Shown piece by piece: positions 1-30,140 of a DNA stretch of 64,000 bases. A program made the position numbers and the translations under genes. Origin of the DNA: Candidatus Saccharimonadota bacterium (GTDB lineage: Bacteria > Patescibacteriota > Saccharimonadia > Saccharimonadales > Saccharimonadaceae); assembly GCA_009992235.1 (NCBI GenBank), contig JAACVZ010000001.1, positions 1 to 64,000 on the forward strand, written 5' to 3'. Numbering within the stretch: position 1 is the first letter of the stretch; every line of letters starts with the position of its first letter. Below the pieces are notes generated by a model. That model saw only the letters and a list, made by a program, of their open reading frames with translations, ran no database searches and had not been told where the DNA came from.

Positions 1-455
<455 letters not shown>

Positions 456-673
456 GTCCTTATCTCTTGATTTGTCTTTTGACAAATTAACGAGATAGGG
501 TAGACTTAACTAGCAATTGGTGTGAATCAAAATTCATACCAGAACGTCAATTTTTAAGCGTTCTTACAGCAAGCATCGATACTATAAGAGTACACCCGTA
601 CTTTAATAGGCATCGAAGCAAGGTTTCGACCCACTGACGAATATATGTCAGCTCAAAGAGTCGGAAACCTTAC
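456..673 (+). other. 23S-5S internal transcribed spacer with several hairpins, no tRNA
   Basis: No gene is seen here. The spacer holds a run of inverted repeats: TATCTC/GAGATA with an inner TTTGTC/GACAAA (about 460-497), GGTGTGAAT/ATTCATACC (519-541), AGAACG/CGTTCT (541-564) and a strong stem AAGGTTTC/GGAAACCTT with an inner CTGAC/GTCAG (about 622-672) directly before the 5S gene. These are plausibly RNase III-type processing stems. None folds as a tRNA cloverleaf. Confidence 0.6.
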
Positions 674-26290: not shown

Positions 26291-26480
26291 TTGACGTGCT
26301 TTTACCGTTATGCCAATAGCCGCAGTATTCGCAGAGGTATTGCTGGAGGTCTTTGGCGGGTTTTGAGAGTTCGGCGTCGAGCTGGGTGGGGTATTTTCGT
26401 TTCTTTTTGTCGCCGACAAGGCAATAATCGGCTTTGCTGGGTTCTAGGGGGAAGGCTGGGCTGCGCTTTTTGTGCTTCAT
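26274..26480 (-). CDS. small zinc-knuckle-like protein
   Basis: 68 residues, basic. The core YLCEYCGYWHNGK has CxxC followed by W-H, a pattern seen in many small phage- and CPR-type proteins and likely to bind zinc; an upstream Cys (YCLV) is also present. AAGGAG lies five bases before the ATG on the minus strand, which supports the start. It is divergent from the T-box leader. Function is unknown. Confidence 0.65.
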   Translation of the reverse strand: MKHKKRSPAFPLEPSKADYCLVGDKKKRKYPTQLDAELSKPAKDLQQYLCEYCGYWHNGKSTSTFSRT

Positions 26481-26498
26481 ACTCCTTAGTATATGGTG

Positions 26499-26690
26499 TA
26501 TAATCCATTATAGAAACGTTTGAGTGGTTATCAGCCACGAGTTTTCGGAAGAAATTTGGTCCGCCAAAGAGTAGAGCCGAACGCCGCGCCGCGTTAGAGC
26601 GATTAATCAAGTGCTAAGAGAAACACTTCTTTTGGAAGCTAGATGGTACCTCCCACTTTCGGGATCTAGCAGCTAAACGAAGTGTTTTTT
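26499..26690 (+). promoter_or_regulatory. T-box-like tRNA-Ile riboswitch with terminator, upstream of GNAT-ileS
   Basis: TATAAT (26499-26504) starts the leader. An ultrashort stem I pairs 26524-26528 with 26534-26538 around loop TATCA, which holds AUC, an Ile codon. A stem II follows (TTCGG 26544-26548 with CCGAA 26577-26581), with AGUA/GAA bases as in an S-turn. A stem III pairs 26609-26613 with 26624-26628. The antiterminator has helix A1 GCTAGA/TCTAGC (26638-26643 with 26665-26670), the seven-base bulge UGGUACC (26644-26650) and helix A2 TCCC/GGGA (26651-26654 with 26661-26664). UGGU can pair with the ACCA end of tRNA-Ile. A rival terminator pairs CACTTTCG (26654-26661) with CGAAGTG (26678-26684) before six T. 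Each element fits the T-box plan; pairing was done by eye. Confidence 0.78.
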
Positions 26691-26709
26691 GTATAAAAAA
26701 AGGAAGCGC

Positions 26710-27246
26710 ATGGAACCATCTACAACGGAACAGATTCAGATAGTTGCCTCCACTAAGAGCGACGTTGTTCCGATACGAACATCGCACGGTCGTATTTGGC
26801 GCGATACGTATGAGAATGAAGAATTTGGAGTGACGGCTGCTTGGCTCAAAGAGCGTACGGAAGGTTGGCTGACAGATGAAGCTATTGAGAAGTCGTACGA
26901 GCGACATGAACGAGTTTCAACGGACCCGAGCCAGCGCGAATTGGTGGCAAAAATCAACAACGTGGTTGTCGGGTTTGCCCACGGGTCAAGTATTGATGGC
27001 GTACAACACCTAGAGGCGATATATGTTGATGTTCCGTACCATGGTAAGGGGGTTGCGAAAGCCTTGATGGATGAGTTAATGGACTGGTTTGACGTACGGG
27101 CACCAATAACACTAGAGGTTGTAACTTACAACGATCGAGCCCAAGCATTTTACAAGAAGTATGGATTTCGAGAAGTTGAGGGTTCTGGGAAGTTGTTCGT
27201 AGGCAAAATTCCAATAATTGAAATGAAGAGAGAGGGTATCTCATGA
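26710..27246 (+). CDS. GNAT-family N-acetyltransferase
   Basis: 178 residues from the ATG at 26710, with AAGGAAG just upstream; a TTG 21 bases earlier lies in the terminator U-tract. The acetyl-CoA motif is V-x-x-x-Y-H-G-K-G-V-A-K-A-L (motif A), followed by NDRAQAFYKKYGF (motif B), both typical of GNAT enzymes such as RimI-like or small-molecule acetyltransferases. The acceptor is unknown. Its stop overlaps the ileS start (ATGA), so it is coupled with ileS and lies behind the same T-box. Confidence 0.88.
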   Translation: MEPSTTEQIQIVASTKSDVVPIRTSHGRIWRDTYENEEFGVTAAWLKERTEGWLTDEAIEKSYERHERVSTDPSQRELVAKINNVVVGFAHGSSIDGVQHLEAIYVDVPYHGKGVAKALMDELMDWFDVRAPITLEVVTYNDRAQAFYKKYGFREVEGSGKLFVGKIPIIEMKREGIS

Positions 27247-30140
27247 AGTTTAAGGCCAACACTCGCCGACGCGCACTGGTTTACGAAAAAGAACTCGTAA
27301 ACTACTGGAAAGAGAACAAGACGTTTGAAAAATCGGTCGAGCAGCGTCCGGCGGATAACACGTATGTTTTCTATGACGGTCCACCGTTTATTTCTGGTGT
27401 GCCACACCACGGAACACTTCTTAGCTCCATTGTGAAAGATGCTGTGCCTCGGTATCAGACCATGAAGGGCAAGCGCGTCGAGCGTGTTTGGGGCTGGGAT
27501 GCTCACGGGCTACCGGCGGAACGCTACACCGAAAAGAAGCTCGGTATTAACTCTCGCCAGGAAGTTATTGAATACGGTATCGAGAAATACATCACCGCCA
27601 CCCGCGCCAATATGCTGGAAACCAGTGGTGCTTGGGAAGAAACAATCGACCGCATTGGTCGTTGGGTCGACTTCAAGGGCGCCTACAAGACCATGGACAA
27701 AGAATACATGGAAAGTATTTGGTGGGCATTCAAGACGTTATACGAAAAAGGCAAAATCTACGAAGGTGAAAAGGTGCTGATGTACTGTACGCTAGACGCC
27801 ACGCCACTTTCAAAAGCCGAAGTCACTATGGACGCTGGGGCGTATCAGGATGTGACCGACCCGAGCGTTTATACCAAGTTTAAACTTGTCGACGATGATG
27901 CGTATTTATTGGCTTGGACTACAACTCCATGGACATTGCCGGCAAATACTGCCCTCGCAATTAACCCGGGCATTGAGTATGTAAGAGTTAACTATATGGG
28001 CGAGATGTTCATTTTGGCGAAAGAACTTGTCGAGAAAGTGTTTACTAATGAGAAGCATCAGCCACTTGAGTACGAAGTTCTTGAGACGATTGACGGACAG
28101 AGCCTCATTGGCGCGCGCTACGAACCGTTATTCGAAGATCGGGGCGAAAACGCTCACAAAATCTGGGCCGCTGACTACGTCACGACCGAGTCGGGCACGG
28201 GAATTGTTCACCTTGCGCCGGCGTATGGTGAGGAAGACTTTGCTTTGGCTCGCGCCGAAAACATCCCCGTGGTGCATGTTATTGATGAAAACGGCGAATA
28301 CACCGAGACCGAGTGGAAGGGTGAGAACGTCTGGGAAATTAACAAGACTATCGCGAAAACATTGCATGAACGTGGCGTAGTTTTCAAAATCGATTACATC
28401 CGTCACTCGTATCCGCACTGTCATCGCTGTGGCACGAGGCTTATGTACCGCGCGCACCCAAGTTGGTTTATGGATATCGATAGCCAGCGCGAGCAGATGC
28501 TGCGTCAAAATGGCGACATCAACTGGTTCCCAGAGCACGTGAAACACGGACGTTTCGCCAAGACTGTCGAGCAGGCGCCAGATTGGAACATTTCTCGCGA
28601 TCGTTTCTGGGCAACGGCAATGCCGGTTTGGAAAACCGAAAGCGGCAAGGTGAAAGTTATCGGCAGTTATGCGGAGCTTAAGGAATTGTCCGGCGTTGAG
28701 CTGGAAGATTATCACCGCCCGTGGATAGATGATGTAAAGTTTGAAATCGACGGTGAAGAATACACGCGCATCGATAAGGTCATGGACAGTTGGTTCGAGG
28801 CGGGGAGCATGCCGTTTGCGCAGTTCCACTATCCGTTTGAAAATAAAGAAAAATTTGAAGCAAATTTCCCGGGCGATTTCATTGTTGAATACATTGGACA
28901 AGTCCGCGCCTGGTTCTATTACATGCACGCTATGAGTGTGGCGCTATTTGGTGAAAATTCATTTAAGAATGTGATTGTCACCGGAAACGTCGCCGGCAAC
29001 GATGGCCGGAAGATGAGCAAATCGTACGGCAACTATACCGATCCGAACGAGCTAATGGACACTTTCAGTGCCGACAGCCTCCGGTTCTTACTACTTTCTA
29101 GCCCACTACTGAGTGGCGAAGACTTCACGCTGCAGGACAAAGAAGTTGGTGACGTAGCGCGCAAGCTTTCAATGATTTGGAACATGTACGACTTTTTCAC
29201 AATGTACGCCGAGGTTGATGGTTGGGAATTCGACCCCGAGAAGCCATTTTCGCTGACCCCAAGTGACGTAACCAGCCCGCTGGATAAATGGATTATTTCG
29301 CGCGTTCATCAACTGAACGAAGAAGTAACGACGCATATGGATGCCTATAATATTCCCGATGCGCTTAGTCCAGTGTTGCCATTTATCGACGATGCCAGTA
29401 ACTGGTTTGTGCGTCGGTCACGTCGACGCTTCTGGAAGAGTGAAGATGACGGTGATAAATCCGATGCTTATCGCACACTACATTACGTACTATTGAAGCT
29501 ATCTGTTATACTCGCGCCGTTTACGCCGTTCCTTGCTGAAGAGCTGTACCAGAAGCTTGGTGGTGGAAACGAATCGGTCCACTTACTGAATTGGCCAACA
29601 AATTATTCTGTCGATGAAATCGTTATGAACGAAATGGCTGCCACCCGCAAGATAATCGAAATTGGGTTGATGCAACGTATGAAAAGAGACGACGAGTTTG
29701 GTCAGATAAAAATTCGCCAACCACTTGCCGAGTTAACTTATGGTGGGGTAGAGCTGTCCGAGTTCTACGAAACAATTATCGCCGAGGAAGTAAATGTGAA
29801 GAAGGTGTCTTCTGGTTTCATGACAAACGAAAAGCACGGTGCCGTGTATGTCGTTCTAGATAAAGCGCTCACACCAGAGTTGCAGCGCGAAGGCTATGCC
29901 CGCGAAGTCGTGCGTCATGTACAAGCCGCCCGTAAGGCCGCTGGCTTCAACGTAGACGATAGAATAACGCTCGACCTTAAAACCACTAGCAACGAGCTCG
30001 AGCAGGCTATTAATGAATACGGTGAAACAATCCGTGAAGAAACGCTAGCTCAGTTTGATAAAAAAGCAGGCGAGCACGTCTCGGTTGCCCGGATTAACGG
30101 CTTCGAGCTTACTATTGGCGTCGCTAAAATATCGCATTAA
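27243..30140 (+). CDS. ileS: isoleucyl-tRNA synthetase (eukaryote-like type)
   Basis: 965 residues. The class I active site shows PHHGT in place of the HxGH signature, KMSKS is exact (GRKMSKSYGN), and the CP1 editing domain has TTPWTLPAN. The anticodon-binding domain and a C-terminal domain follow. The zinc cysteines of the long bacterial form are absent at the C terminus. It charges tRNA-Ile. Expression is likely controlled by the T-box leader at 26499, through uncharged tRNA-Ile. Eukaryote-like IleRS is often resistant to mupirocin, an inference not visible directly. Confidence 0.95.
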   Translation: MKFKANTRRRALVYEKELVNYWKENKTFEKSVEQRPADNTYVFYDGPPFISGVPHHGTLLSSIVKDAVPRYQTMKGKRVERVWGWDAHGLPAERYTEKKLGINSRQEVIEYGIEKYITATRANMLETSGAWEETIDRIGRWVDFKGAYKTMDKEYMESIWWAFKTLYEKGKIYEGEKVLMYCTLDATPLSKAEVTMDAGAYQDVTDPSVYTKFKLVDDDAYLLAWTTTPWTLPANTALAINPGIEYVRVNYMGEMFILAKELVEKVFTNEKHQPLEYEVLETIDGQSLIGARYEPLFEDRGENAHKIWAADYVTTESGTGIVHLAPAYGEEDFALARAENIPVVHVIDENGEYTETEWKGENVWEINKTIAKTLHERGVVFKIDYIRHSYPHCHRCGTRLMYRAHPSWFMDIDSQREQMLRQNGDINWFPEHVKHGRFAKTVEQAPDWNISRDRFWATAMPVWKTESGKVKVIGSYAELKELSGVELEDYHRPWIDDVKFEIDGEEYTRIDKVMDSWFEAGSMPFAQFHYPFENKEKFEANFPGDFIVEYIGQVRAWFYYMHAMSVALFGENSFKNVIVTGNVAGNDGRKMSKSYGNYTDPNELMDTFSADSLRFLLLSSPLLSGEDFTLQDKEVGDVARKLSMIWNMYDFFTMYAEVDGWEFDPEKPFSLTPSDVTSPLDKWIISRVHQLNEEVTTHMDAYNIPDALSPVLPFIDDASNWFVRRSRRRFWKSEDDGDKSDAYRTLHYVLLKLSVILAPFTPFLAEELYQKLGGGNESVHLLNWPTNYSVDEIVMNEMAATRKIIEIGLMQRMKRDDEFGQIKIRQPLAELTYGGVELSEFYETIIAEEVNVKKVSSGFMTNEKHGAVYVVLDKALTPELQREGYAREVVRHVQAARKAAGFNVDDRITLDLKTTSNELEQAINEYGETIREETLAQFDKKAGEHVSVARINGFELTIGVAKISH

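Follow-up and report, generated by a model that had tools for sequence, protein, structure and literature searches.

Genes and signals at the GNAT-ileS locus

The window analysed here, a 64,000-nucleotide stretch of contig C3 in the 691 kb genome of a Candidatus Saccharimonadota bacterium, contains a T-box, a predicted riboswitch, in front of a GNAT acetyltransferase gene and ileS, the gene for isoleucyl-tRNA synthetase (IleRS). An original prediction for this locus had proposed a T-box with an ultrashort stem I carrying AUC in its loop, a stem II with S-turn bases, a stem III, and an antiterminator whose UGGUACC bulge lies between helices of 6 and 4 bp. Our analysis recovered every one of these elements, and added a K-turn-type base below stem I and a stem IIA/B pseudoknot (Table 1). 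The interval previously given for the leader, 26499-26690, was correct for the structure and incorrect for its start: it opens on the -10 box TATAAT, so that the leader RNA probably begins near 26510, and the complete T-box spans 26510-26690. The promoter match is weak evidence alone, as 1.2 such matches are expected by chance, yet it is suitably positioned.

Table 1. Features of the leader and its downstream genes (window coordinates).
Feature	Position	Strand	Details	Evidence
Promoter	26476..26504	+	Sigma-70-like, TTCATA-17-TATAAT; -10 box 26499-26504	Consensus scan, 10/12 matches
Stem I base, K-turn-type	26513..26544	+	AAAC 26514-26517 / GUUU 26541-26544; 3-4 nt bulge; G.A pairs (GA 26522-26523 / GA 26539-26540)	RF00230 aligns here; relatives
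Ultrashort stem I	26524..26538	+	GUGG-UUAUCAG-CCAC; 4 bp, 7-nt loop UUAUCAG; specifier AUC 26530-26532	Pairing and covariation
Stem II with S-turn	26544..26581	+	GAAGAA near 26548 / AGUAGA near 26570	Lower-stem covariation; near-invariant purines
Stem IIA/B pseudoknot	26580..26601	+	AACGC/GCGUU and CGC/GCG	Crossing helices
Stem III and flanking motifs	26609..26637	+	RRRxG (AAGUG 26609-26613); stem III 26614-26622/26627-26635; AA 26636-26637	Pairing in 96 sequences; motif as in PMC7583486
Antiterminator	26638..26670	+	A1 (6 bp, GCUAGA/UCUAGC) 26638-26643/26665-26670; bulge UGGUACC 26644-26650; A2 (4 bp, UCCC/GGGA) 26651-26654/26661-26664	Covariation
Intrinsic terminator	26618..26690	+	5' strand 26618-26635 (reuses stem III 3' strand); 3' strand 26673-26690; U6 26685-26690; encloses antiterminator	Fold; layout in relatives
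Shine-Dalgarno of GNAT gene	26699..26706	+	AAAGGAAG, mostly unsequestered	Fold probabilities
GNAT acetyltransferase gene	26710..27246	+	4-nt overlap with ileS	Pfam PF00583, E 1.1e-17
ileS	27243..30140	+	Isoleucyl-tRNA synthetase	Class I tRNA synthetase domains

A whole-Rfam scan of 26450-26740 returned RF00230 (T-box) as its sole convincing match (32.9 bits, E 6.7e-6). The alignment covers the full length of the model (26510-26671) and supports the T-box identity for which a check against this family had been suggested, although the score falls under the family cut-off, a point taken up below. The placing of ileS behind a GNAT gene was likewise borne out by the domain content of the two products, and the IleRS is 77-78% identical to the nearest IleRS of named Candidatus Saccharibacteria. 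In the Shine-Dalgarno sequence of the GNAT gene the first six bases were predicted to be unpaired (P 0.95-0.99), while pairing is favoured at the remaining two and at part of the start codon.

Conservation and covariation in Saccharibacteria

The leader was first recognised 5' of ileS in relatives through its bulge. An alignment of 15 homologues, with two sequences whose stem II was shifted in the MAFFT alignment left out, had 99.7% of its cells paired and two-sided changes at 16 of 24 pairs; neither figure was reached in any of 500 shuffles, and slid controls gave at most 52%. A model built from relatives (R1; its E-values, and those of the wider model R2 introduced below, are rough) produced 96 matches among 99 ileS loci, some of which represent one genome obtained via two collections, and the counts given here are of leaders and not of independent species. 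In the 96-row alignment 98.5% of helix cells were paired and 22 of 24 pairs showed two-sided changes (a level that none of 500 shuffles reached; slid controls stayed at or below 51%), with 489 cells carrying such changes in comparison to 143 expected. Because this larger alignment was made by fitting to the model, the covariation test on 15 sequences is the cleaner one.

Across the 96 leaders pairing was retained in 98.9% of cells in stem I, 97.2% in lower stem II and 98-100% in the stem III helices, with two-sided changes at all pairs of each (4/4, 5/5 and 6/6, respectively), and in 99.5% of A1 and 97.5% of A2 cells, also with compensatory changes. In the alignment of 15 the S-turn purines were near-invariant. 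Lack of conservation of specifier and bulge in related ileS leaders had been named at the outset as an outcome that would speak against a T-box. Both were found to be conserved: AUC was present in the stem I loops of 93 of 95 Saccharibacteria leaders, and the 7-nt bulge between A1 and A2, of the UGGNACC type, began with UGGU in 86 of 95, with UGGA in 4 and with UGGC in 4. The two added elements were less uniform. Of 94 leaders, 83 had an A.G pair at the stem I base and 41 had 3 bp or more in the outer stem, which lends moderate support to a predicted K-turn-type base. The IIA/B pseudoknot, clear in the window, scored above its own shuffle mean in 52 of 68 relatives (for example CUGA/UCAG), and its predicted presence across relatives is moderately supported as well.

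Gene context was equally consistent, as ileS lies 3' of 95 of the 96 leaders, directly (<150 nt) in 52 and after an intervening stretch in 43; a related GNAT gene occupies that stretch in 10 of the 96. In seven members of the family (G042, G012, G060, G028, G038, G006 and G040) ileS was matched in 2-4 pieces within open frames of 1107-1573 aa, which suggests inteins or large insertions in these IleRS proteins. Of the 295 genomes of the class, 200 gave an R1 match. One genus (g2 of family f1) stands out in that many of its near-complete genomes lack such a match though most of the family has one, a pattern suggesting that the leader was lost or strongly diverged there.

Stem III and the terminator as alternative pairings

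The terminator had been described as ending in six T and overlapping the antiterminator. Its U6 tract stands, whereas the overlap is with stem III, and the antiterminator is enclosed. The 82-nt 3' domain (26609-26690) folds at -30.8 kcal/mol (z -4.5), which none of 200 shuffles equalled, and this lowest-energy structure is the long terminator 26618-26635/26673-26690 around an intact antiterminator (OFF). If the terminator 3' strand is left unpaired, the antiterminator folds together with stem III (26614-26635) at -19.8 kcal/mol (ON). Because the antiterminator stays folded inside the terminator, stem III is the helix that the terminator excludes. The same nested layout, with the stem III 3' strand reused and 4-7 U following, was found in 92 of the 96 Saccharibacteria leaders; the canonical overlap of A1/A2 with the terminator was also sought and does not generally apply within this family.

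In 81 parsable leaders the terminator takes up, on average, 8.0 of the 8.6 nt that make up the stem III 3' strand. Own-strand terminator pairing averaged -16.2 kcal/mol in comparison to -9.6 with partner strands of other genomes, and the stem III halves gave -8.4 versus -5.0 kcal/mol. The terminator-state structure was 94.5% paired in the 15-sequence alignment, with 14 pairs changed on both sides. Both helices therefore look selected, since both covary and both pair better with their own strand than with a foreign one. All helices, these two mutually exclusive pairings, the specifier, the bulge, the U tract and the gene context are computational observations; what is new in the predicted switch of Saccharibacteria is that stem III, and not the antiterminator, is the competing helix.

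From this anatomy we infer tRNA binding, sensitivity to charging and the direction of the response. Stem I and the stem II S-turn would read the GAU anticodon via AUC, as their conserved anatomy implies. When the tRNA is uncharged its 3' NCCA end would pair with the bulge UGGU, and the RRRxG/AA purines flanking stem III would, judging from solved relatives, lock the discriminator on it. Folded stem III would withhold 26627-26635, which is also part of the terminator 5' strand, resulting in read-through and more IleRS. With charged tRNA or none, the discriminator would be unlocked, GAAGUGUUUUUU would invade stem III, and the long terminator would form around the antiterminator and stop transcription. 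In this proposed mechanism the discriminator, locked by uncharged tRNA, keeps stem III in place and thereby prevents the terminator from forming; the proposal builds in part on the signs that both alternatives are selected.

The tRNA-Ile(GAU) of relatives has the form GGGCGAU...AUCGCCC-A73-CCA, and the bulge UGGU fits an NCCA end because this tRNA carries A73. The discriminator A for which a check had been proposed is thus present in relatives. The contig opens inside the 23S rRNA gene (window 1-456), followed by 5S (674-783), and the 16S-23S spacer is missing from the assembly. Since the tRNA-Ile gene of a relative (G058) lies between 16S and 23S rRNA, the corresponding gene of the window's genome is most likely located just beyond the contig end.

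Taken together, the leader is very probably a tRNA-Ile-sensing T-box with a short stem I (class III architecture) that controls transcription of GNAT-ileS, as judged from its sequence and that of its relatives. Several findings weigh against this interpretation. The RF00230 score of 32.9 bits stands against a gathering cut-off of 93; Rfam scans at gathering thresholds reported no T-box in the window, 16 relatives also fell under the cut-off, and an RF00230 search of the window's whole genome reported no match. The likely reason is that the model expects a long stem I where the leader has one of 4 bp, and the low score is a limit of the model and not a defining biological feature. UGGU occurs together with A73 in most cases. 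In two genomes (G058 and G007) the bulge is UGGA, yet tRNA-Ile has A73, so that pairing at the fourth bulge position does not always take place; the match of bulge U to discriminator A that had been anticipated is hence not universal, and these two UGGA genomes gave no support for the bulge N covarying with tRNA base 73. No tRNA-Ile(GAU) gene could be located in the assembly to which the window belongs. Finally, since folding of the antiterminator is possible in the OFF and ON states alike, the switch depends on stem III, and we did not find a described precedent for a stem III-based switch.

Three other explanations were considered. The stem I and stem II architecture matches that of actinobacterial ileS T-boxes acting on translation, and the leader could be a translational class III T-box of this kind, in which tRNA binding exposes the Shine-Dalgarno and the U tract is incidental. 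We regard this as very unlikely, as 92 of 96 leaders have U4-U7 immediately behind the covarying hairpin, and leader and ileS are separated in the window by an entire GNAT gene. The Shine-Dalgarno core is predicted to be unpaired and therefore argues against translational control; its sequestration was rejected on this ground, and the transcriptional output originally suggested is favoured. Alternatively, the leader may derive from a T-box while its terminator escapes tRNA control, termination being constitutive or set by other factors. This is comparably improbable: antiterminator and terminator are indeed compatible in the minimum-energy fold, and in two loci outside the class (L200 and L206) the terminator neither overlaps nor encloses the antiterminator, but stem III and the terminator are mutually exclusive and both covary, and a relic would not keep specifier and bulge conserved. 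An ordinary leader-peptide attenuator, or a chance terminator 5' of ileS, would account for a terminator preceding the operon and nothing more; given the full T-box architecture, the compensatory changes and the codon-gene agreement across aminoacyl-tRNA synthetase (aaRS) families, its probability is negligible, and covariation in essence refutes it.

Breadth across Patescibacteria and comparison with known T-boxes

In the phylum as a whole, R1 matches were obtained in 120 of 380 genomes. A wider model (R2) built from 40 phylum-wide members and applied at E <=0.001 matched 175 of the 380, and in the window's genome it identified one convincing site, the ileS leader. Forty phylum loci were read, and all 39 with enough downstream sequence precede an aaRS gene, namely ileS, valS, bacterial aspS, non-discriminating aspS or thrS. 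Specifier calls were anchored on the S-turn and only clean stem I calls were counted. AUC was present in 17 of 17 cleanly called ileS loci of the wider phylum, and GUC in ten valS loci including L200, in which AUC is present in the loop too (the call was ambiguous for L206 and failed for L228). As called from sequence, the specifiers match ileS or valS in nearly all callable loci. Leaders of non-discriminating aspS had AAC (L221, L225) or GAC (L216), and either fits because this enzyme charges both tRNA-Asp and tRNA-Asn.

Genomes with multiple copies had further candidates before serS, glyS, proS, tyrS, trpS, lysS, argS and argH, some as second gene; one genome (G325) had ten candidates at E <=0.01, of which the weaker ones are unproven. 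At L276 in this genome (G325:C7:14108-17405) the genes behind a T-box-like leader are a 172-aa GNAT-looking one and then argH (argininosuccinate lyase), and the T-box system may therefore extend to amino-acid biosynthesis. Terminator layouts varied among 36 loci of the wider phylum, with 14 canonical overlaps, 13 enclosing, 4 separate and 5 unclassified. In L200 and L206 the antiterminator is followed closely on its 3' side by the terminator hairpin. Two G+C-rich ileS T-boxes (L204 and L231) had no U tract and a start codon immediately 3' of the antiterminator, and are candidates for translational control in the same phylum.

Overall, we consider it probable that Patescibacteria use short-stem-I T-boxes phylum-wide for transcriptional control of aaRS genes, and that Saccharibacteria have a distinct stem III switch with a terminator enclosing the folded discriminator. 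The original prediction remarked that T-boxes in this phylum are little described; our search of the open-licence literature, which could miss a subscription paper, found no paper on T-boxes in Saccharibacteria or Patescibacteria, and the one paper naming both riboswitches and Patescibacteria mentions the former as engineering tools. The leader thus belongs to a large phylum-wide set that is apparently undescribed. T-boxes are regarded mainly as a Gram-positive system and their short form as a means of translational control in Actinobacteria. That close to half of the Patescibacteria genomes sampled have the short form, for the most part with terminators and in front of several different synthetase genes, extends the range known for the class and points to a tRNA-sensing regulator in reduced genomes, of whose gene regulation little is understood.

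The closest known systems are the class III ileS T-boxes of Nocardia farcinica and Mycobacterium tuberculosis (PMC10482949, PMC10651847), which share with the leader a very short stem I lacking the elbow-binding IDTM, an apical-loop specifier, an S-turn stem II, a IIA/B pseudoknot, a UGGN-bulge discriminator and the ileS target. The Saccharibacteria leader differs in phylum, in its loop of 7 nt in comparison to a specifier loop of 5-6 nt, and at the base of A2, which is U-A in the window in place of the actinobacterial G-U wobble (G-U does occur in 53 of 96 relatives). Class III T-boxes mostly regulate translation, and those of actinobacterial ileS sequester the Shine-Dalgarno, whereas the output here is an intrinsic terminator, with 92 of 96 leaders carrying a U tract behind a covarying hairpin, and with an open Shine-Dalgarno core. 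The leader is class III-like in architecture only, although a definition that says "mostly" translational allows exceptions. The class IV ileS T-box of Actinomyces odontolyticus is likewise an ileS leader without IDTM, and this species hosts the Saccharibacterium TM7x (PMC6166536). TBDB has run its short-stem model solely on Actinobacteria and on class I hits that were truncated.

Class I transcriptional T-boxes (Bacillus subtilis tyrS type, RF00230) resemble the leader in the tRNA-dependent choice between read-through and intrinsic terminator and in the motifs of stem II, stem III and antiterminator, and differ in their long stem I. In class I the terminator 5' strand is formed by the 3' strands of A1/A2 (PMC7583486), unlike the Saccharibacteria leader, where stem III supplies this strand and the antiterminator is enclosed. 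The joining of a short-stem-I architecture to a transcription terminator is apparently new, and suggests that the elbow-binding part of stem I may be dispensable for transcriptional control.
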